Shown here piece by piece: positions 1,511 to 18,452 of a stretch of 20,460 nt of DNA (positions are counted from its first letter, which is position 1; each line of letters begins with the position of its first letter). The position numbers and the translations under genes were made by a program. The stretch is taken from assembly GCA_036939755.1 (NCBI GenBank), contig JALLAZ010000170.1, positions 1-20,460 on the forward strand, written 5' to 3'. Source of the stretch: Stephanodiscus triporus. Its lineage: Eukaryota > Bacillariophyta > Thalassiosirophyceae > Thalassiosirales > Thalassiosiraceae. Under the pieces are notes generated by a model. That model worked only from the letters and a program-made list of their open reading frames with translations, did not search any database and had not been told where the DNA came from.

Positions 1511-4500
1511 CTACTTAGACCCCGGCCTGACGGAGGAGCCCCCCTTCCCACCGTATTGGACATGCTTCGTAGCCTTCCCAAGTTCTACCTGGTTAACTCG
1601 CTGAGCAAATCGTAGAGAGCACAAACTCTCGTTGCTGCTCTCGAGCGTCGGACTCAGGTTGACGAACATCAGCGCCTTGCCATCCCCACTGAGGCAATCC
1701 TGGAGGAGGTACGTTAGCTTGGAGTTGCGGAAGGGCACGTGCTTAGATCCGTTGGCGAGGCTGGTGAAGACATCGCCCAGGCAACTCAGGCTCTTGTTGA
1801 TGGCCTGCGTCTCCTTTAGACGCTGTGCATCAGACGCGGCGCCGCTGCGATCGAGGCGCTCGGACCCAGCGAGATCGCAAAGGTTGAGCGCTCCCTGCAC
1901 TGTGGTGCCGCTCTCTTCGTTACTGCCGCAGAGTTGCAGCATGAAAACTGAATGACTCCGCGAGCTTTGTGCGTTCATCTTTGTCGTTGCCACGGATCGA
2001 GCGCGAGCGGCGGCGGATATGACCGCCTCAAGCTGCGCCATGCCGTTGGCCCTGTTCGCTACATCGATGTCGACCGTGTTGATGCCGTCCACGAAGCTCT
2101 TTCCGTCGGCATTCCTCTTGATGGACAACTTAGGCGCCGTCCTTGCGTCGCGCGACTTCGTCGATCCGTCCGAGTTGACCATGACAAGCAGGTCCCGCAA
2201 GTCCTCGTTATAAATCTCGAGGAAGCTCGCCTTCATGGTAAACGTCCATCGCTGCGATTGCATTGCCATAGCCTGGGATAGGATTTGCTCCACTGCCCGC
2301 GGTATAATACCGCGCATGGCACCGTTGCCACTCCCCTGCATCGTGTGCGTTTTGCCCGACCCGGTCTGCCCGTACGAGAAGAGGCAGACGTGGTAGCCGT
2401 CGAGGGCACTTTGGACGAACTCCGACACTTCGTCGAACACCATATCCTGTCCTGTTGAGGGGGCGAATACCTTGTCAAACTTAAAAGCATGTCCCTCGCC
2501 AACATGCTTGCCCAGGATCGTAAGACTCTCCCCGTCGGGAAGGATATCAATGGAAGAATGTCGGGCCGCGGCGCCATCGGTGGGCAGGAAGGGCCGCGTG
2601 CGCACGTAAACGCGGATGTTGCCCCGCAGCTCCTGTATGCGATTGTGCAACGCGCGACGGAGCTGCTCCCCGCTTAGGAGCTTCTCCTCAAGCTCTGCGA
2701 TCCTGCGATCGCGTTCCTCGATGCGCGCCTTCAGGATGGCGGGGTCCTCGTCAGAAGCGCCGTCATCGTCTTCGTCGGAATTGCCCGCGCGGCTTTTGAG
2801 CACGCTCATTTCGAACAATAGCCTCTTCTCTCGTTCTTTCCAATTATCCTCCTTCGCCTGTAGGTCGGCCTTGGCGCGGACCTTGATCTCCTCGAGGTCA
2901 GCGCACGTTGCATTCAGCTGCGCTGTCATAGCGGTGTGTTCCGTCGTCAGGAATTGAAGTTGGATCTCGGCCTCGGTGTTCTGCGACTTGGACGATTCGA
3001 GCTCGCGATAATCCCTCTCGAGCTCGTCGTAATTGCGCATAAGCGTCTCGATCTCCGTGTGAGAGGCGTACACGTCCGACTCGAGGGATACCTTTGTTAT
3101 GCGTAGGCTCTTGATCTCCTCGTCCTTGTTCTTGATCTCCTGGCGCAGTTCCTTGATCTCGTTGTTCGTCTTCAGCCTCTCGCTCCACGAATCCTTTTCT
3201 CCCCCCCCCCCACATCCGATCCCATCGACGCCGCTCGTCGCCGCCCGCGCCTCGCGACCCAATCTGTTGTTCTCCTCCTTGAGGGCCTCGTTCTTCATCT
3301 CGAGCTCCCGGTACCGTTCGTCGGCCTCCACGTTCGCCTGCTGGTGATTCTCGATCTCGGCGCAGAGCCTCTCGCGCTCCCGTACCCACGCATCCTCCCT
3401 CTGGCGCATGCGCGCCTCGAGTGGGGCCTTGGACATGCTGAGCTCCATCTTCTCCCTTTCGAGGCTCTCGATCCGACGCTGCATAGCGTGCAGGCGGGAC
3501 CTCATCGCCGCGGAATCGACGGATTCGATGGGGGACAGGTCCGACGACTGCTGATGCTGCTGATCCTGCTCCGACGGATGACGTCGTTCGACAACAACCG
3601 ACTCGCGTTCCACCACGCAGTCAGTCGACTGGATCCGTCCCTGCACGGACTCGTCCGCCTCATATTTTTCGTTAGATCTCTCGGCAGCGTGACTGGGGTA
3701 GGTCGGCGGCAAAAGCGGCCTCGACCTGCGAGGCTGTTGGTGGTGGTCGCCGGCGGCGGCAGCGGACTGGTGTTCCGACGGCGCGAGGCTCGTCCTCCTC
3801 CTGACCCTGCGCTGCGCGCCGCCCAGGCTGAGCGCGCTCGAGTACCCCCTGCCCGCCTTCGTCTTACCCGGCGTGCTTAACATCGTGGCCGCGCCGTTCG
3901 ACTGGGCGTAGCACCTGACGGATTGGTCCTCCTCCTCGGCGCAGCTCGACGACGAGCGCGACGACGGCGGGTGCTTGAGGCCGACCGCGGGCGTGTCCGG
4001 GGCCGCCGCGCCGCCGCCGCCGCCTCCGAAGAACTGTCCGGAAGCGCCGCCCCCAGGCGTGCCCGGCGGTCCCCCCCTTAGCTTGCGAAGGCGATACCGC
4101 TCCAGCGCGGAGAGGCCGGGGTTGTTGTCCTCCTCGCGGTCGAAACTCATGCCGCCCGACTCGTCCCACGATGGCTGCGCCGTCGAAGCCTCGATCGTCG
4201 TCGGGCCGTCCGCGTCGCGCGCGGCGGGATGACGTAGACTGTGATCCTCGTCGTGACGAGATGACGACGACGCGGACGACGAACGAGCCGGGGCGGTCGT
4301 CCCTCGCCGGCCGTCGTCGACGTCTTTGACCCTCCCGCCGCGATTGCGTCGCCATTCGTCCAGCATGGCGCGACGGTCATTCTTGAGCTCCGCGGCGCCA
4401 CCGCCGCCGACGCCGCAGGAGGGGGATTCGTCGCCGAGATCGAGCAGGAGGCCGCCCCCTCCCCCTCCCCCTCCCCCTCCTCCGAGGCTCGTTCGACGAT

Positions 4501-4579
4501 TGGCCCTCGATCTGGCGTCGCCGAGGGGGGACGCGCCGCCCGGTCCGAGGGACATGCGACTGCGTCGGGAGGCGCTCAT
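1511..4579 (-). CDS. Kinesin-14 family C-terminal motor protein (Ncd/KIFC1 type)
   Basis: This is a minus-end-directed microtubule motor, expected on the spindle. The 1022 residues run from a basic, low-complexity tail (1-340; poly-Gly, Ser/Arg-rich), through a coiled coil (about 345-645, heptad-rich with EIENHQ, ELEREKMEL and similar), to a motor domain (about 650-1005). The neck-to-motor junction ELRGNIRVYVRTRPF near 650-665 is diagnostic of kinesin-14. P-loop GQTGSGKTHT lies near 737-746, switch I SSRSHS near 871-876 and switch II LCDLAGSER near 901-909, followed by KSLSCLGDV and VPFRNSKLTYLLQD. All nucleotide-binding motifs look intact. It has no intron. The ATG at 4579 is the first in frame and opens a basic Ser/Arg tail that could bind microtubules. 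It is divergent from the CDKA gene. A C11 run (3201-3211) and a CCCCCT array (4455-4480) encode Gly runs. Confidence 0.95.
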   Translation of the reverse strand: MSASRRSRMSLGPGGASPLGDARSRANRRTSLGGGGGGGGGGGLLLDLGDESPSCGVGGGGAAELKNDRRAMLDEWRRNRGGRVKDVDDGRRGTTAPARSSSASSSSRHDEDHSLRHPAARDADGPTTIEASTAQPSWDESGGMSFDREEDNNPGLSALERYRLRKLRGGPPGTPGGGASGQFFGGGGGGAAAPDTPAVGLKHPPSSRSSSSCAEEEDQSVRCYAQSNGAATMLSTPGKTKAGRGYSSALSLGGAQRRVRRRTSLAPSEHQSAAAAGDHHQQPRRSRPLLPPTYPSHAAERSNEKYEADESVQGRIQSTDCVVERESVVVERRHPSEQDQQHQQSSDLSPIESVDSAAMRSRLHAMQRRIESLEREKMELSMSKAPLEARMRQREDAWVRERERLCAEIENHQQANVEADERYRELEMKNEALKEENNRLGREARAATSGVDGIGCGGGGEKDSWSERLKTNNEIKELRQEIKNKDEEIKSLRITKVSLESDVYASHTEIETLMRNYDELERDYRELESSKSQNTEAEIQLQFLTTEHTAMTAQLNATCADLEEIKVRAKADLQAKEDNWKEREKRLLFEMSVLKSRAGNSDEDDDGASDEDPAILKARIEERDRRIAELEEKLLSGEQLRRALHNRIQELRGNIRVYVRTRPFLPTDGAAARHSSIDILPDGESLTILGKHVGEGHAFKFDKVFAPSTGQDMVFDEVSEFVQSALDGYHVCLFSYGQTGSGKTHTMQGSGNGAMRGIIPRAVEQILSQAMAMQSQRWTFTMKASFLEIYNEDLRDLLVMVNSDGSTKSRDARTAPKLSIKRNADGKSFVDGINTVDIDVANRANGMAQLEAVISAAARARSVATTKMNAQSSRSHSVFMLQLCGSNEESGTTVQGALNLCDLAGSERLDRSGAASDAQRLKETQAINKSLSCLGDVFTSLANGSKHVPFRNSKLTYLLQDCLSGDGKALMFVNLSPTLESSNESLCSLRFAQRVNQVELGKATKHVQYGGKGGSSVRPGSK
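4455..4485. repeat. CCCCCT-type array encoding poly-Gly in the kinesin tail
   Basis: Repeated CCCCCT units on the plus strand are read on the minus strand as a run of eleven glycines near residue 35 of the kinesin. They are in frame, so they do not disrupt the gene, but they are a likely site of length variation. Confidence 0.85.
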
Positions 4580-5242: not shown

Positions 5243-6422
5243 ATGGATCGGTAAGTCCACCCAGGCGGCGTTGTAGAGGCACACTGATTTGTCATTGTTC
5301 ACGACAGCGTTGGACAAAGGCAGGAATAGCTTGTATGACGACACCTAGCACTTGCTTCCGAGTGGCTCAGTCGATCGTCGGGTGTGCAGGGCACAAAACA
5401 AGGTCTTTCATGTTGGGACCGCGCTGTTCCTGTTTCATGACCGTCATCCGTTATTCTCGACAAGTCAAAAGACTCAACAACTTTCGTCTCCCTCCTCGCC
5501 TCGCCGACGCGATAAAACGCCGCCAAATCCCAGCTATCAAAAGATCGAAAAGCCAGGCTCTAACCTCGGCGAGGGGACATACGGAGTCGTGTATAAGGCT
5601 CGCGACCTCCACACCAACGAGATCGTCGCGCTGAAACGCATCCGCCTCGAGGTGGAGGATGAGGGCATCCCCTCCACGGCCCTGCGCGAGATATCCCTCC
5701 TGCGGGAGCTCACCCACGAGAACATCGTCGACCTGAAGGATTGCGTCCAGCAGGACGGCAAGCTGTACCTGGTCTTCGAATTCCTCGATCGGGACCTCAA
5801 GAAGGCCCTCGAATCGTACAACGGACTCCTCGATCCAATGCTCGTCAAGTCCTACCTCTTCCAGATGTGCCGGGGACTCGCCTTCTGCCACGCCCGAGGC
5901 GTCATGCACCGCGACCTCAAGCCGCAGAACCTCCTCGTGTCCCGCGACGGGGTCCTCAAGCTCGCCGATTTCGGACTGGCGCGCGCGTTCTGCCCGCCGA
6001 TCCGACCGCTGACGCACGAGGTCGTGACGCTGTGGTACCGCCCCCCCGAGATCCTACTCGGATCGCAAACGTACGCCCCCCCCATGGACGTTTGGGCCAT
6101 CGGTACCATCTTCGTCGAGATGGTCACGAAGCGACCGCTTTTCCCGGGAGATTCCGAGATCGACGAGATATACAAAATCTTCCGACAGCTCGGCACGCCC
6201 AACGAGGTGGTGTGGCCTGGGTGCACCGCCCTGCCGGATTGGAACCCGGCGTTCCCCATCTGGTATAGGAGCTCGTTCTGCAAAGTGTTTTTGGACAACG
6301 TCGACGACAACGGACTGGACCTGCTGGAGAGGTTTTTGGCGTTCAGTCCCAAGGATAGGATTACTGCCAAGGATTCGTTGAACCATCCGTACTTTGATGA
6401 TTTGGACAAGGAGAACATCTAG
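5243..6422 (+). CDS. CDKA2: A-type cyclin-dependent kinase with PSTALRE motif (CDKA2-like), two exons
   Basis: Exons are 5243-5250 and 5534-6422; the intron 5251-5533 runs from GTAAGT to CCCAG. The join ATG GAT CG|C TAT gives MDRYQKIEK, the standard CDK1/2 start, and a 298-residue protein, the usual CDK length. Without the intron the frame opens upstream only at a TTG and gives an unrelated N-terminus. Motifs: GEGTYGVV with inhibitory sites T18/Y19, beta-3 K37, PSTALRE at 49-55 for cyclin binding, HRDLKPQN at 128-135, DFG at 148-150, T-loop [10 protein letters not shown] with activating T163, then PPE. All catalytic residues are present. Four residues (PGSN) sit between YQKIEK and the Gly loop, compared with human CDK1. 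The C-terminus DKENI contains a KEN sequence. In the diatom Phaeodactylum the PSTALRE kinase is CDKA2, the G2/M form. AATAAA lies at 6561-6566. Confidence 0.92.
5251..5533 (+). other. Phase-2 intron of the CDKA gene
   Basis: The donor CG|GTAAGT matches the consensus fully, and the acceptor is AAATCCCAG|C. The 283-bp intron separates an 8-nt coding first exon from the rest and keeps the frame. Support comes from the exact recovery of the conserved CDK N-terminus. Confidence 0.85.
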
Positions 6423-9454: not shown

Positions 9455-12400
9455 TCACAATTCAGAATTCTTTCGTTTCTTTGAAGAAGAAGATGAATAA
9501 AGACTGAAGTCGTACAAGTCATCTCCGTCCTCGACGCCCGAAGACGCATTAATTAAAAAAGTTCTTCGCCTCATCTCATTTTCTGCGGCGGATCTACCGT
9601 TAGCAGTTGAAGGATCGATCCTTTTCGTATCAAGAATGCTTGACTTGGACTTCTTCGCCAAAACATTCTCTTTCAAATCTCGCCAATCCTCGACATAGTT
9701 CTGGCAGAATTCTTGGCGTTCGACATGAGCAGAATGGTTCACCATGTACTGATGTCTTAGCGCTTCGTCGGCTGTCATGCGCTTCTTGGGGTCTAGATGA
9801 AGCAGGGCGTCAATTAGATTTATCAAACTTGCAAATTCGGTTTCGGCGCTTTCACCATCTGCCCTCAGTAAAGCCCGAAGGGCCTTTACAACTCCTCTGT
9901 TATACTTCTTCTTCTTCCCCTCATCTCCGATTACAAACATGTTGTTGGAATAGAAGGGAAACTCCTTCGCTTGTTCGAAGTTGTCTTTATCAGGAACCCC
10001 GACAATTTTAAAGACTTGAGTCATTTTACCAACCCGATCTTTTCCTGGAAAGAGCTGCTTGCCAAGGAGGAGGTTTGCTAAAAGTGCCCCAAATGCCCAC
10101 ATGTCAGTCTCCTTAGTGTATCTGGTCCCACCCAAGAGAATCTCTGGTGCGGCATACGGCTCGACATCCTCGGTATTGTGCTCTTTTCTCTTCTTCGTAC
10201 GGACATACTTGAGAGGGTCATACTCTTTCGTGCGATCTTTGCCGTGTAAAATCATGACTTTGGAGAGGCCACTCAGCTTGGCAGTGCCAGTGTGGTCGAG
10301 ATGTATCTGATCAGGTAAAAGGCTGCGTAAAACAATGTGGTTGGAGTGACAAAAAGAAATTGCAGACAATATGTCATGACACCAGCTTGCCAACACTGTT
10401 GGCGGGATGATGGCCCCTCCACTATATTTTCGCTGGTAACTGTTCATGACCTTTTGAAGATTTAGGGGAGTCGGCTCGAGAACCAAGTAAGAACCCGACG
10501 CCAGCTGCTTGTTCCCAGCAGCTCTTTGGTTCCTTTCAATCATTGCCAAAATGTCATTAGCAGCTGTATTCGATGTGATACTCGATGATTCAGGCGCTGA
10601 TTCTTCGTTGGTACCAGAATCCAATGCGATCGCCAGTGGCAGTATGAAATTGGGATGACCTTGGGGTGATGGAATAAGGAAGTGGAGTTCATGCAAAAGC
10701 TGCATCTCTTGCAATGCTGCCACCGAGTAACCCATTTGCATATTCCGCTCTGAAGTGATTTTTTCTTTCATTTCAATCTTTTCGAGTGGCCAGCGCTGGA
10801 GAGAAATTGGCACGGAGCAGTCGTTTTCCTGCGCTTCTTCACCTTCGGGACCTGTCAAAAAAGATGCAAGAGCAGGATACTCGGCCTGCATTCTTGAATA
10901 TCCCCCAGAAAAAGATTGTGCAAACAATGCCAGGGCTCGCATGTCGACAGAATCATGATTGATCAGTTTCGGAGACGAAAAGATTTCGCACAACGATCCA
11001 CTGAGACTAGGACCATACTGATGGGGGACCCACCATCGCAGTCCAGCCGAATCTATGTGTCCTAGGGGTGCATTGGCCGCTACACATGTCTTCCACCCAG
11101 CATCGTACATCTCCTCCATCTCAAATGTGCCATGCCATCCATGTTTGCCGTCTATTCTTTTAATATCAAGCAATCCAGGTTTATCCTTGACTTGCTTGAT
11201 CACATTGTCATCACTTGGAGGCCGGCGGTCAAGGTTGACATTCGCACCAGCCGCAAATTGAGTATATGGTATAGAGGGGGACAATAATGCGACCTTACAA
11301 AGCTGCTGCTCTGCGATGGACAATGCCTTCCAATTACCTTCTAAGACGATATCATTTGTCCCCTCCAATACGCCAGGTGAAAATCGAATGGTACACTTGC
11401 TTTCAACGGAAATTTTACTCAGGACAGGCAAAACCATCTCTTGAATGCGATCATCATTGACCCCGCGAAAGACCCTACGTAGTTTGGCACGTTCCGAAAT
11501 TTCCTTGTACGCCGGCGAAGACACAAACTTGGAGTCGTCGATTGCTTCAGAACCATGGTGTTTGCTCATGTACGTCGCACAATCCTTTTGAACCCTTTGA
11601 ATGTTGATACCCATTAGAGATACTTTGCTTTCACTGAACAGTTCATGCTTTGCCTTCAATGCGATGCTTTTCTTCACTCGCGACAAAGCCTGGCACGAAA
11701 TGTAGATGAGTTCGGCTGTGTGAGAGACCTTCAGCGGCTGCAAAGATAGGGCGGGGAAAAGTGGCTCGATATCTAGGGAGAGGAAGCCTGCAACGGCCGC
11801 AAATGCATATTTTGGACCATACTTGAGCCAGAGGACAGGGCCTGCCGCTAAAACATGTCCCGAGAGTGCCAAAGCCATGGCATTCTCGGCAAGTGGCTCG
11901 GACATAGCCTTAGTTCCCACCACCGCATTAATTACCCAATCAACCCCCGGCCAGAAGACGTCGTAATTCAACGATGACAACACAGTATTCTCAGCCTTGA
12001 TGACACGCCGCTCCCAATTCTTCGCCTCCTCGCTCTGAGGATTGAAGTAAGACCCCGGATAAAACACGCGGAATGCATGCTCGAGTACTCCCTCCAATCG
12101 AATCCACTTGACAACCTTTTGGGACTTGTTGGCGATGAAGAGAGATGCCAATTGAACATCACGTAGCTTGATGTCAATATTATGGGAATGATTGAGATTG
12201 ATGTAGCGGTAGAAAACGATGCAGGCGTGTGCAGCGACCTTGTCAGACAGACCTGCACCAGTGACAATTTCGGAGATTTCGAGGCATGCGGTTCCAATGG
12301 CGCGTGGGTCGGAGAGGCGTAGCGAGTCCGCAGTGCTGCTCAGCTTTGCTACAGCTTGTGTCGACGCAACCACATCTTGCGCCATCGCCAAAGAAGTCGC

Positions 12401-15400
12401 ATCGCAATCCGCAGTACTAAACATATTCTTATTGACATGATTCGATTCCAACAACAGCGCCCAATCCCGGCCAAATCCCCAACGCTGCTTCCGAATATAA
12501 TGATCTCGAAGCAGCTCAATCTGAAGATGGATTAATTCCTCAGCAATATCAATCTTCTCATTTACCTGAGCATTATCAATGTCGCCACCCACAGAGATGT
12601 CTCCGCCATCAAGACGGAGGTGAGAACTGCCCGTGATGGAATCGACACTGACTGATGCACCACTAATTTTTTGAACAAAGTCAAAGAAATAATTCCATTC
12701 TCCACCCCCATGTCCATTCTTCTTGATTGGTTCCAACAACGCACGCTGGTAAATCTTGTTGGGCCCTAAATGTAAGAATCGCACCCCCCTTGTCAAATCG
12801 ACGATGCGCGTTCTCAAATACCCCCATAGCGTCTTTACTCGCGAAGGAGCCACGCCAAGATAAATTTTACGAAGCTTGTAGGGATGAGCCTCGTTTATCA
12901 CGCGATTGTTCAAGACCCTTCCCATATCCTCTTCAGCCTGTACCCATATCATGCAACGATTAGATTCCATAAATGACATGGCGAACGTGGACCTGCGTAA
13001 ATCTTCACACGCGTCATTCGTCGCCTGTGCCCTCTTCAAGTCGGCGAACAGCATGCGAAAATCGCTGTTGGACAATTCCCCACCCAAAAATCCCAAATCC
13101 TTGTATATGCCAATAGATGTTAGCGGTGCACTGTTTTGTTGACACATTTGCGTGAACTCCTTATATAAATATTCCATAGCGCGGTCCAAGTCGGTAATCG
13201 AATCGGAAGATAGCGCCATTTTTGCGAATTGTTTCGATTTTGAATCGGAATGAGTGAATGTTACATCAACATTGTAACAATATCCCTTTAGCGAGAAGAA
13301 TTTTTTCTTGACCTCATCAACAATTATTCGGGGTAAAATTACCTCGCTAACATGGGGTTTGATTGCCTCAGTTACCCCAGTTAGGCTGGTAAAATTGCCA
13401 ATTGATGCCCGTGTTGGAAATGCAGCGGAGGGCGCGTTTTCAATCCCATTTAACTCGTTGGATATCTGTGTGGCAGCCGTCTCGAGATATTCCACGGCCT
13501 TCTGTACTTCAAGACCGGTAACGACCAACTTCCACACTAAACCATCCACAGATTCATCATAGGCCTTACTCGGGAGGGCATTATCGCCTCCCCACTCGCC
13601 ATTGCTATCTTCACCTCGATCGCGAGGGACTGTAATCTTGACGGTATCGATATGCACTCTCCACATCTGCGCACACTTGAACAATGAGTGCCTTGCACCC
13701 ATGACGTCCTTGACGGGAGTTTGAATAAATAAATAATTCTGCCCTCCATTTCCTTTCGATAATTTGGGAGACGATGATCGTGAAAGGCTGTCGGTTGGGG
13801 GGGACAGTCCCGATGCGCCAGCGTCACCGTCAGTAGATAAAGGAGGGACATTGATGAGCAGTGAGATTTCCTTATTGCCATCCTCGAATGCCGAACTCTT
13901 TCGTGCAATGGCATAGGATCTCTTTCGGCCTCCTTCCCGCATCCCCTTCCCGCTATCGTCTTCGTCGGAGTCGTCATCAGAACTATTATTGAGATGCTGT
14001 AATTGCGGCTCCTCCAGCAACATCCATCTCTTGTCGCACAAGTCGACCCAATGTTCCTGGCCGGTATTATCGCCGCGGCACATAAGCAGGTGTTTTCCTA
14101 ACATGCCATCGTATTGGGAAACGTCAGCGCTGAAATACTCATCGCTATCGGAATTATACACCTTGACAACGCGATTCATGATCTCCTTCCCCACCCGCAC
14201 ACTCTTCACTCCACTGCCGTCGACGTCGCCGCTCACCCGCGGCTGTTCCAACCAAACGCCATCACGATCTTCCCTGATTTCCCTCTCGATTTCTGCGGCA
14301 TCCTTGGGAACCTCTATGGTGCCACGACACTTCGCCGAGCCACAGTAACACTTCGTCAGCGCCCGTCCGCGCTTCCTGTCCCACTGGTAATCGAAGCTGA
14401 GCTCCTCCCCCTCCTCGATATCCCTTATAGCGAAGACGCACGCTCGGAGCACGCCACGGACCTTCCACCGGTCGACCTTGCAGTTCGGCTCGCACGAGTG
14501 GTTTATGTACCGAGCGATGCCACCGCGATGACGGGCGTCGATGTACACGCCGCTATCAAGGGCCATGATGTACAGCATACGCTCGCTCTTGTACTCCGCG
14601 AAGAGTCGGTCAAGATACTCCTTTCGCACGGCCACGCCGACGTACTCAATGATGAATTGGCCTGGAGAGCAGCGCTCCCCCGCGATCAGCCCCCGTCCCT
14701 TCAACCCGGCGTCGAACACGGCCAGCCTCAACCACTGCTTGCGCTGTATCCGATTGTTCTTGCATAATGGTCCGGCGGGGCAGCTCCTGTCGCATTCCTC
14801 CTGGATCGCAAAGTTGGCGCAGTTGGTGCTGACGCAGCAGGGGGCCTCGCTGACAAGGTCCGGCTCGCAGAAGCACGGCTCGGGACGATTGGGCTTCGGT
14901 TTGGGCGCCTTGGCGCTGTTGGGTATCGACACGCGATTTTGGACGCCGCCGTTGTCTGTCCCCGTCGGCGTCAACGTCGACACGTGCGTCGCCGCCGGGC
15001 CCTCGTCCGCCCATTCCACCTCAGTGATGTGCTCAACGTCGTCGGGGAGAGAGATGGCACGTTTCTCGACTGTGCGCGAGGCGGGATTATTCCAATGGAG
15101 GGATACGGTGTAAGTGTCATCACCGGTTATTGGCTTTTTGTCCCGATTTTCTCCCTCCAGTTTAATCTGCGGCTGTGATTGTGACGATGATGGAGAAATA
15201 GTAGGAGTTGCGGCAGTATGATCTTCTTGTTTGGCGAGGTGTGTGTTATCGTTCGTCCCAGGCTGTTGTTGCGAGTATATCACCAATGATGTCGCAGGCG
15301 AGAGCGGTGCAGCGCTGGAGGATGACGAGATGACGTCCGCTGTCTCATGACAAGAGATGTCTCGTGCCGGTGGTGTGGTAGGGAACATCATCGACGAAGA

Positions 15401-15627
15401 AGGCGGCCCTGGTCGCATTGTCACGGCCGATGACGGTGACGACGAAGACTGTGACGACGACGACGACTTCGCTTCGACGGGCTGCCCCCCACCGCCCTTG
15501 CTCAATGGAACGACATATTCAAAAAGGCTGATGGCGTTACTGCCATTATCACTGCTGCCACTACCACTGCTGTTGCCGAAATTACCATTGCCAGTGCCAC
15601 CGCCGTTGCTATTGCCAAAATGATGGC

Positions 15628-15664
<37 letters not shown>

Positions 15665-16339
15665 GCCAAGACGACCATCATCGTTGTTGTTGTTGTAATT
15701 GAAATTGTTCTTTTCTGAATTATCGTGAAAGTTGTAATTGGAATTCCGCTCGCGCTGATACTGTAGCTGCTGCGGCGGCGCCGGCTGCGGCTGGGGCTTG
15801 GGTTGTGGCTGCCGCTGATATTGCTGCTGAGGCGGGGGCAGATGATGATGATGATACGCCGACGACAACGACGACGACGGCGGGGGGGGGCGCTGGAAAC
15901 GCTGGCGCGAATCCTGCAGCAGGGGCGATGGCGACGACGAAACGTCATGGCGCTGCTGCCGTCGCATGGCGGGACCGTTGGCCGCGATCGCGACCGGCAC
16001 CCCCCCGAAGCCGGGCGGCGGCGGCGGCGGCGGCAGCTGGAATCGATGGCGAAACCTCGGGTGGACACCCTGGTGATGTGGCGACGACGGTTGCGGATCT
16101 CCGACGCCACAGAGTCCCCCGCGCAATTCTCCCTCTTCGGCATCGCCTTCCCTCCCTCCTCTGGATTCATGAATGGCAAGATGATTATCGCCCCATCGCT
16201 TGCGTGGATCCATCGCGCGCTGTTGTTGTTGAGGAAATTGAGGATGTTGCTGCCACTGCTGCTGCTGTTGCTGATGTTGCTGCTGCTGATGCTGCTGCTG
16301 AGGATGGGGATTTTGGTGGTGGGGCATCGACGACGCCAT
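9455..16339 (-). CDS. SET (Set2-like) - KH-like - cyclin - CDK-like pseudokinase fusion protein
   Basis: A single 2294-codon reading frame, no intron. The order is: (a) 1-485, disordered, Gln/Pro/Asn/Ser-rich; (b) AWS Cys cluster about 487-535 (CFCEPD...CDRSCPAGPLCKNN), SET about 536-655 with NHSCEPNC near 611 and ELSFDYQW near 646, and post-SET CYCGSAKCRG near 661-672; AWS-SET-postSET is the Set2/SETD2/NSD/ASH1 layout for H3K36 methylation; (c) about 864-1290, repeated KH-like segments, the clearest after LHLGPNKIYQR at about 1190; (d) cyclin fold about 1325-1545 (VAAHACIVFYRYINL, LASLFIANK, WERRVIKAENTVLSSLNYD), nearest to transcriptional cyclins; (e) another KH-like segment about 1630-1690; (f) CDK-like kinase domain about 1850-2205. 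In (f) alpha-C (VAALQEMQLLHEL), APE (YAAPEILLGG near 2060) and DMWAFGALLANLL are kept, but HRDLKPQN is LRSLLPDQ (about 2003-2010) and DFG is lost (KLSGLSK near 2020). So methyltransferase activity is expected, but kinase activity is not. No SRI domain is visible. The Set2-like class is firm; the biological role is inferred. Confidence 0.88.
15631..15665. repeat. (GTT)n run encoding poly-Asn in the SET-cyclin gene
   Basis: Thirty-five bases of GTT repeat are read on the minus strand as twelve consecutive Asn residues. Neighbouring CTG/TTG-rich sequence (16205-16310) encodes interrupted poly-Gln near the N-terminus. All are in frame. Confidence 0.9.
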
Positions 16340-16830
16340 TTTGAACTACTAATTAATTGCCACTGCGTAATTCTTTTGGATCGGGGAGGGGGGACAAGGC
16401 GTCGATTCCCTTTATTCTCTCCTCCGACTAAATCTCTCTCTCTCTCTCTCTCTCTCTCCCCCTCTGCACGATATATTTGTTCGGCTATGCCACTAATAAA
16501 TTGCGGAGCAATGTTGGGGATAATGAACCTTCATCAATTGTGTGTTAGAATAGTTAGTTGTTTTGGGCGCGGGGCGGGTTGGGGAGCACGGTTGGGGAGA
16601 TAGAATGAAGAGCAAGCACAAAAAAAGGAAGAGCATTTTTCTCTCTTTTTTGTGGCTGGTGACCACTGTGACACAAGGCATCTGCCTTTATTAGGGAATT
16701 GGTATGAATCGTTTTCTTGGGAACTTGTTTTTCCCGGAATAATGTATGGTACGTATCTGAAAACAAAGGTGAACCAAGCTAACTACAAAGTACCGAAGCA
16801 TTGGAGCGGCTTTCTGCAATTGACAGAGAC
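16340..16830. promoter_or_regulatory. Shared divergent promoter of the SET-cyclin gene and the sirtuin gene
   Basis: These 491 bases lie between two outward-facing ATG codons. They include a (TC)13 tract at 16433-16458, which is GA-repeat on the strand of the SET gene and lies about 95-120 bases before its start. No separate gene is recognisable. The closeness suggests shared control of two chromatin enzymes. Confidence 0.5.
16433..16458. repeat. (TC)13 microsatellite
   Basis: Twenty-six bases of uninterrupted TC dinucleotide lie in the divergent promoter. GA/CT tracts in promoters can be GAGA-type or initiator elements; no role is proven here. Confidence 0.95.
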
Positions 16831-17041
16831 ATGGCAAATAAGGTGGCCCCTCCGCCGCAGTCGTCGGATTTCTGCGACGGTGGCAGCGCGAGAGTCGGCG
16901 GCAAAGACGCGACCGACGAGGGAACGCCATCATCGGGCGACGACAAGTCGAAACAGAAGGCGGCGCCTCCTCCCCAATCGACGAAGGCGACGACGACGAC
17001 ATCGCCGCCGCACGACGAATCGCCGACGGATCGACGCGGTG

Positions 17042-17072
<31 letters not shown>

Positions 17073-18452
17073 TATCATCGCATCGCTCGCCGAAGGTTTG
17101 GGTGGCGTGTCCATCTCGTACCAGGAGAAGGTAGCGATCGACCCTCTCCTCGCGTTGACGACGACCATTTCGACGGCGCCGGAAGCGATCAAGAACATCG
17201 CGGCATTGCTGTCGTCCAATAAGTATACCAACATCCTAATACTCACCGGTGAGTAGACTTGAGATGCGATGAGTAGTCCCAGTCGGACGATCGTGTGACG
17301 GCACGTCCTTGATGTGTCGAAAATACATGCGTTCTGATTTTCTAACTCGGTATCAAATATATTGAATCACTCGCCCCAGGAGCCGGCGTTAGCTGTAACG
17401 CGGGAATACCGGACTTCCGTAGCCCTGGCACCGGACTGTACGACAACCTCCAGAAGTACAACCTTCCATTCCCGGAGGCGGTTTTCGACCTGGAATTTTA
17501 CAGTCGCAATCCCGATCCGTTCGTGCACCTTGCGAGCGAGCTTTGGCCTGGACTTAGACACTCCCCCACCATCACGCATTCGTTCATCGCCCTACTGGAG
17601 AGGAAGGGTTTGCTCCTGAGGAATTACACACAGGTGCGTGGTCTATTTATTTATTTATTTTTGTCGGCCTTTCGTCAGTTTCCCCGATGATACCGTCGGA
17701 TTCGTAGATTGGCGTGCATCGGTGTGGCAAACGTGCCATTTTTGGAGGTACACTATTCGTATTCGTAGCGCCACACGACATTCATCGGATTTCGCACCAT
17801 CGCGCACCCAGAACATAGATATGCTCGACGTATTGGCGGGGGTGTCGGAGGACAAAATGATCGAGTGTCACGGACATTTCCGGACGGCGTCATGCACCGG
17901 ATGCTCCCTTCCATTCGACGGCGACGAATGCAAGCGCATCATCGTCGACGAAAAACGCGCACCGACCTGTCGGCATTGCGGGGGGTATGTGAAGCCGGAC
18001 ATCGTCTTCTTCGGGGAAAGTCTACCGCCGAAGTTTCATAGGATGGTGAAGCAGGATACTAAAAAGGCGGACCTTCTTTTAGTTATGGGGACATGTGAGT
18101 TTTGTTATCAGTAGAATTGTTGGGGGGGGGGGGGGGTTATCAGCCACTTGATCGATTAATCCTTTTTTTCTCATACCGGTTTTATGGCGAAGCCCTCATG
18201 GTCTCGCCGGTCAACATGATTCCCGACATGGTGACGAAAAGTTGTCGACGTGTGCTCCTCAATAGAGAGCTGGTAGGAACGTTCAAGAGGGTGAATGGTC
18301 TGAGGACGAGGAGTAAACAACACAACACTACTGCCCAACGAGACATCTTTCATGGAGGCGACTGTGATGAGAGCATAAGGATGCTTTGTTCAATACTTGG
18401 CTGGGAAAATGAGCTTGACATGCTGAATTCATCAACCCGATTAGGAGGGTGA
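16831..18452 (+). CDS. SIRT2/Hst2-like class I sirtuin, NAD-dependent protein deacylase, four exons
   Basis: Exons: 16831-17248, 17380-17633, 17812-18094, 18193-18452 (404 codons). Introns of 131, 178 and 98 bp run GTGAGT/CCCAG, GTGCGT/CCCAG and GTGAGT/GAAG, and all junctions keep the family motif across the splice (LTG|AGVS, NYTQ|NID, VMGT|SLMVSP). A TTG-initiated extension upstream of the ATG is ignored. Residues 1-100 are low-complexity (Pro, Ser, Thr, poly-Gly, poly-Asp). The catalytic core has [15 protein letters not shown] (140-154), [19 protein letters not shown] typical of the SIRT1/2/3 class, QNID (224-227), catalytic His244 (ECHGHF), zinc Cys 252, 255, 277 and 280, [15 protein letters not shown], and MGTSLMVSPV. 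Catalytic residues all look intact. Targets in this class are acetyl-lysines of histones and tubulin. No targeting peptide is evident, so nucleus or cytosol is likely. It is divergent from the SET-cyclin gene. Confidence 0.93.
18122..18136 (+). repeat. G15 homopolymer in sirtuin intron 3
   Basis: Fifteen consecutive G lie inside the 98-bp third intron. The length may be unreliable in sequencing, but it does not affect the coding frame. G runs in introns can act as splicing enhancers. Confidence 0.9.

Follow-up and report, generated by a model that had tools for sequence, protein, structure and literature searches.

The gene considered here, in the diatom Stephanodiscus triporus, raises the question of why a histone methyltransferase should carry a cyclin and a cyclin-dependent kinase (CDK) within its own polypeptide, and what a kinase so placed could be doing there. 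The window (the whole stretch of DNA analysed, 20,460 nucleotides in length) contains a single uninterrupted frame in which the preliminary description had recognized AWS-SET-postSET, cyclin and CDK-like parts of one chain, and this architecture has been borne out both by the frame itself and by its relatives. Translation probably begins at Met43, at position 16213, because the sequence MDPR is found at or near the N-terminus, inside the first 60 residues, in 14 of 132 sequences (the relatives and the window protein). The relatives, 131 in all, came from three protein searches (106, then 21 and 4 new ones), of which the first two were confined to the 7997 and 7998 candidates with the most words in common and the third matched 7 of 7244 candidates, a scheme that distant relatives could escape. 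The alignment to which the row counts below refer has 130 rows and leaves out P0032 and P0090, both truncated proteins. Genome searches covered an assembly of 21.65 Mb in 1324 contigs, with the studied frame on its contig 170. The parts of the chain are collected in Table 1.

Table 1. Parts of the SET-cyclin-kinase chain, with positions in the window and the evidence for each.
Feature	Residues	Position	Strand	Evidence
Whole open frame (P0001), 2294 codons		9455..16339	-	Uninterrupted frame; 131 relatives
Probable true coding sequence, from Met43 (MDPRKRWG)		9455..16213	-	Inferred; MDPR near the N-terminus in relatives
AWS	500-545	14705..14842	-	Pfam, cut-off passed only in the genome-frame search
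SET, with NHSCEPNC and FDY intact	548-652	14384..14698	-	Pfam, PDB comparison, alignment rows
Post-SET cysteines	653-680	14300..14383	-	Sequence; C664, C666 and C671 conserved in the alignment
Tudor-like domain	about 716-785	13985..14194	-	Profile against PDB, weak Pfam
Conserved middle region, with tentative degenerate KH-like segments	866-1300	12440..13744	-	Conservation, weak KH_1
Cyclin box 1, with K1405 and E1450	1340-1465	11945..12322	-	Pfam in relatives, profile matches, alignment
Possible second cyclin box	1466-1560	11660..11944	-	Position and conservation; inferred
Possible KH-like segment between cyclin and kinase	1618-1690	11270..11488	-	Weak FUBP1 KH and KH_1
Pseudo-CDK region	about 1842-2200	9740..10816	-	Pfam, PDB profile matches, alignment
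PSTAIRE-like helix, GYSVAALQEMQLLHELH	1870-1886	10682..10732	-	Colinearity with CDKs, conservation scan

The N-terminal AWS-SET-postSET block is predicted to be a Set2/ASH1/NSD-type histone methyltransferase of the H3K36 class, and H3K36 is presumably its substrate. The SET domain is recognized by Pfam in the window protein at E 5.8e-23, and the nearest solved SET structures are those of ASH1L (131.8 bits), SETD2 (126.6) and NSD2 (114.2). The AWS match (residues 500-534) reaches 19.8 bits in the window protein, below the Pfam cut-off of 23.3, and rises to 26.4 bits, over the cut-off, when searched as a genome frame; only two AWS matches occur in the genome altogether, and the studied protein is the sole one to pass. 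The active-site residues of SET are intact in most rows, with NHSC kept in 115 of the 118 that could be scored (NHGC replaces it in 3, among them P0129 and P0130) and Tyr651 present in 120/120. In Set2 and SETD2, the SRI domain binds the phosphorylated CTD of Pol II, a mark written by CDK9/12-type kinases. The preliminary description had seen no SRI in the present protein, and none is among the families found in 25 members scanned with Pfam at E <= 0.5. An SRI search across the genome returned 0 matches, its controls being equally silent.

Behind SET lies what appears to be a Tudor-like domain. A profile of residues 716-785 matched one solved chain in the PDB, 7de9 (“Transcriptional regulator”), at E 2.6e-6, and Pfam placed PTM_DIR17_Tudor on this region in three of nine members (best 0.028), with further weak matches to the LBR Tudor family (2/9) and to Agenet (1/9). 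Unrelated weak Pfam matches occur there as well, for example to DUF6488 in two of the nine members. The middle region that follows is conserved, yet it gave no secure family match and no relevant match in the PDB. Degenerate KH-like segments may tentatively be proposed both here, where KH_1 was matched in one of seven members (0.029), and between cyclin and kinase, where the profile of residues 1618-1690 reached the KH domain of FUBP1 at E 0.45. Among 25 members scanned over their whole length, three matched KH_1 (best 0.0099), at a place within the chain that the match does not give, and a genome search for KH_1 yielded 18 matches, the studied protein not being one of them. With values such as these, we do not accept KH domains as established in this protein.

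The cyclin is best seen through the relatives. Pfam finds no cyclin in the window protein by itself; of 25 members scanned, 20 match Cyclin_N at E <= 0.5, the best of them at 9.1e-7, and the database's own annotation lists PF00134 for 11 of the 106 relatives of the first search. When a profile of 12 rows, covering residues 1318-1575, was compared with the PDB at E <= 1, all ten matches were cyclins, eight of them Cyclin-T1 and two Cyclin-L, at weak values of E 0.0054 to 0.56. The same profile was compared with the open frames of 34 genome loci, including each of the genome's 16 Cyclin_N matches, and it matched only itself and one other locus (7.3e-6), a Cyclin-K-like gene (5e-29); a pairwise profile comparison of the cyclin region, given alongside that locus, aligned 109 columns at 92.3%. 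As a single query, the Cyclin-K-like protein found 1 of 132 relatives (i-E 0.048) and none of 264 decoys. Taken together, these weak similarities point to a first cyclin box of transcriptional type, closest to cyclins T and L among solved structures, in agreement with the preliminary description, which had placed a transcriptional cyclin at about residues 1325-1545. A second box may follow, to judge from position and conservation. Moreover, the alignment has K1405 in 129 of its 130 rows and E1450 in every one. In cyclin-CDK complexes, this Lys/Glu pair of the cyclin grips the PSTAIRE helix of the kinase.

The kinase region is, on its sequence, derived from a CDK. Pfam matches Pkinase at residues 1951-2199 of the window protein with E 1.6e-22, and the start of the N-lobe is unmatched because the alignment covers profile positions 74-263. 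Against the PDB, the kinase profile finds CDKs first (E 2.1e-31), and among the 60 best matches listed, all but 3niz and 3oz6 have CDK or Cdc2-type names. An ordinary CDK gene elsewhere in the window, which retains PSTALRE, VALK, HRD and DFG, provides an internal control; the kinase profile aligns with it at a probability of 99.5, and the D and F of its DFG face a gap. Across the relatives, the catalytic residues are lost without exception among the scorable rows: the beta-3 Lys is replaced by Ser in 129/129, the HRD Asp is missing in 130/130, and the DFG Asp is likewise missing in 130/130, with positions 2023-2026 also checked in 126 rows. No Gly-rich loop can be recognized in the region. By these criteria of sequence, it is a pseudokinase.

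One element of this pseudokinase has nevertheless been held as firmly as any in the chain. In a sliding conservation scan of residues 480-2235 (130 rows with sequence weights, effective number 62), residues 1870-1882, GYSVAALQEMQLL, ranked first among all 13-residue stretches with 0.49 bits, the SET stretch IARYINHSCEPNC having 0.50; for lengths of 9, 17 and 25 residues the helix ranked third, the adjoining ranks being taken by stretches of the SET active site. Few parts of the chain vary as little as the PSTAIRE-like helix, which equals the SET active site in this respect and has Glu1878 in 130/130 rows. Its identification as the PSTAIRE counterpart is suggested by colinearity and pattern: 6 of 13 residues are identical to the ordinary CDK of the window, and HMMER pairs the helix with GIPSTAIREISLL, a piece that by itself scores just 1.8 bits and is not significant.

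With the cyclin-docking helix retained in the dead kinase, and the CDK-facing Lys and Glu in the cyclin, the pair is best read as a binding platform. On balance, we think it probable that the protein is a diatom Set2/ASH1/NSD-type methyltransferase whose chain also includes a Tudor-like reader and, as a docking module, a cyclin/pseudo-CDK pair without catalytic function. The cyclin box would dock in cis, on the PSTAIRE-like helix that the pseudo-CDK provides in the same chain, and the docked pair would form a rigid platform, shaped like a CDK-cyclin complex and unable to phosphorylate. Such a platform could bind a partner, most likely a part of the elongation machinery, and that binding could target or gate the SET domain, in which case the platform would have taken over the job that SRI performs in Set2 and SETD2. 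A coupling of H3K36 methylation to elongation is plausible.

It is also conceivable that the cyclin acts in trans, carrying a true CDK9/12-type kinase to chromatin, with the pseudo-CDK as its partner or competitor. The preserved Lys and Glu of the cyclin and its affinity to cyclins T, L and K would suit such an arrangement, as would the two C-type CDKs reported for P. tricornutum in the cited section of a diatom survey (PMC2872877). We regard this account as unlikely, though it deserves serious attention: on the kinase side, conservation peaks in the attached pseudo-CDK's own matching helix, which suggests a partner in cis, and the separate Cyclin-K-like gene of the genome is available to a true CDK.

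A less probable alternative, and one that we rate as quite unlikely, would make the protein an ASH1/NSD-like methyltransferase whose module serves RNA processing or splicing, in the manner of cyclin L/CDK11, rather than elongation. The score of ASH1L, slightly above that of SETD2, leans this way, and so do the Cyclin-L entries among the profile matches and the faint suggestion of RNA in the KH-like segments. Against this, Wu and Tirichine's own HMM classes the diatom homologues as SETD2 in the section cited (PMC10421102), the protein is the only one in the genome whose AWS match passes the cut-off, and the KH evidence, with the protein outside the genome's KH_1 matches, is weak.

The preliminary description drew an analogy with cyclin-CDK pairs that phosphorylate the Pol II CTD, which would imply a similar activity of the CDK-like part in the fusion. 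This analogy fails because the beta-3 Lys, the HRD Asp and the DFG Asp are all gone. Retention of the APE-type Pro-Glu (2065-2066), Asp2079 and Arg2187 indicates that the fold is maintained, and could be cited in favour of an active kinase working on the CTD from within the fusion; with none of the three catalytic residues in any scored row, such an activity is highly improbable, and we consider a fused CTD kinase ruled out on catalytic residues. Finally, a misassembly, a mis-called fusion of neighbouring genes or chance can be excluded with near certainty, because the SET, cyclin and kinase columns are all filled in 117 of the 130 aligned rows (window protein included), transcriptome-derived chains among them.

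The gene is real: the SET-cyclin-kinase chain is conserved and spread across diatoms. The other 13 rows are without one or another of the three parts, and most of these are N-terminally incomplete. All three parts are present in four transcriptome-derived chains, namely P0021, P0026 and P0034 (mmetsp) and P0087 (with a MMETSP0156 header); a fifth mmetsp protein, P0115, is without the SET part. The closest named relative, from Cyclostephanos tholiformis, shows 81% identity over the region searched, and another relative protein shows 98% identity over 84%. Named sources include Seminavis, Nitzschia and Mayamaea, which we take to be raphid diatoms, the araphid Thalassionema nitzschioides, and Cyclotella, Thalassiosira, Discostella and Skeletonema, presumably all centric. 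Most of the relatives are metagenome proteins, probably also of diatom origin. The only one of the 131 to be named from outside the diatoms is P0016, which bears the label of an Alexandrium tamarense scaffold; because the tree puts it among the Thalassiosirales, it is read as contamination and not as a genuine Alexandrium relative. No relative was confirmed on viral or prokaryote contigs, the 70 and 87 pattern stretches having failed tblastn.

The preliminary description knew of no described protein of this design. This holds for the full combination, in that no report of a chain joining SET, cyclin and kinase was found in the literature searched, but two partial precedents qualify it. A 2010 kinome paper describes PITG_14137 of Phytophthora infestans, in which a histone-lysine methyltransferase stands N-terminal to an inactive CDK-like kinase, and the section cited gives orthologues in P. 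ramorum and P. sojae and, according to the authors, none in other species (PMC3019232); PITG_14137 was not seen among the relatives from our three protein searches. More recently, diatom SETD2 homologues were reported in 2023 to carry conserved motifs IV-VII beyond AWS-SET-postSET, left unnamed in the section cited, in polar centric and some raphid diatoms and partly from MMETSP (PMC10421102). The words “kinase” and “cyclin” have 0 occurrences in the main text of that paper, and its homologues are very likely the same proteins as the present relatives. The cited parts of the diatom CDK/cyclin survey do not include the present protein (PMC2872877), and those of PMC13289920, PMC4504042 and PMC7784034 hold nothing on a SET-cyclin-kinase chain. 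Set against the literature searched, what appears new is the presence of a cyclin in this chain, the loss of catalytic residues in all scored rows, the conservation of the helix, the Tudor-like domain behind SET and the occurrence across diatoms.

A broader proposal can be offered tentatively, as possible and yet rather doubtful: that in diatoms, perhaps in stramenopiles before the oomycete split, a covalent, dead mimic of a transcriptional CDK-cyclin took the place of the link between SRI and CTD in Set2. This mimic would read the elongation machinery rather than phosphorylate it, the pseudo-CDK dock coupling H3K36 methylation to transcription. If this reading is true, a dead copy of the writer of the CTD mark, lodged inside the methyltransferase, would show that Set2 can be coupled to elongation by a second route, and such coupling would become testable in an ecologically major group. 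The chain would also be a naturally occurring example of selection maintaining the interface between CDK and cyclin after the loss of catalysis. Moreover, it would identify the unassigned motifs of the diatom SETD2 homologues and probably tie these homologues, compared by description, to an overlooked oomycete protein.

Several known systems can be set beside this chain. It shares with Set2 and SETD2 an AWS-SET-postSET block of the H3K36 class, and differs from them in adding Tudor-like, cyclin and pseudo-CDK parts and in the absence of SRI from the 25 members scanned. P-TEFb (CDK9-cyclin T) and CDK12/13-cyclin K likewise set a transcription-type cyclin beside a CDK-family domain, whereas the diatom pair is covalent and its kinase dead. 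STRADalpha, as described in the section cited (PMC2686265), is similarly a dead kinase retained as a regulatory scaffold, although it belongs to another kinase family and is without cyclin or SET. Inactive CDKs with an integral C-terminal cyclin have been described in oomycetes, ciliates and Theileria, and were not found in two diatoms, according to the cited section of PMC3019232; these chains also join a cyclin to a CDK-like kinase that is probably inactive, but there the kinase comes first, SET is lacking, and the only substitution is of Asp by Asn. Finally, and compared by description, PITG_14137 resembles the diatom protein in combining an N-terminal methyltransferase with a catalytically substituted CDK-like kinase in one stramenopile chain, and differs from it in that no cyclin is reported there in the section cited (PMC3019232).

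The SET gene, which encodes the fused methyltransferase-cyclin-pseudokinase chain, lies head to head with a Sir2-family gene, and the promoter region may therefore be common to these two chromatin genes. At the extreme C-terminus of the SET-gene chain (window 9458-9530, minus strand), an acidic D-L-Y motif with basic residues after it is kept, as it is in relatives; 'DLY' occurs within the final 90 residues in 105 of the 132 sequences formed by the chain and its relatives. At the SET active site, NHGC replaces NHSC in a divergent subgroup that includes relatives P0129 and P0130, and was found in 3/118 scored rows of the alignment of the chain and its relatives.

Elsewhere in the same genome, one chain combines a SET domain with a peptidase of the Ulp1/C48 type (locus L026), and similar SET pieces on contigs C799, C1202, and C1069 suggest that this chain belongs to a multicopy, perhaps mobile, family.

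Features of the window and of locus L026
Feature	Position	Strand	Evidence
Kinesin, motor at C-terminal end	1511-4579	-	Kinesin E 5e-96
Intact CDK gene	5352-6422	+	PSTALRE motif at 5670-5690
Sir2-family (deacetylase) gene	16801-18114	+	SIR2 match (E 6.7e-29, open frame 17638-18114, +)
L026 open frame, Ulp1/C48 peptidase + SET	G000:C935 1-2073	+	

The intact CDK served as a control for the pseudokinase of the SET-gene chain, and its PSTALRE is described in PMC2872877 as the motif of diatom CDKA2.
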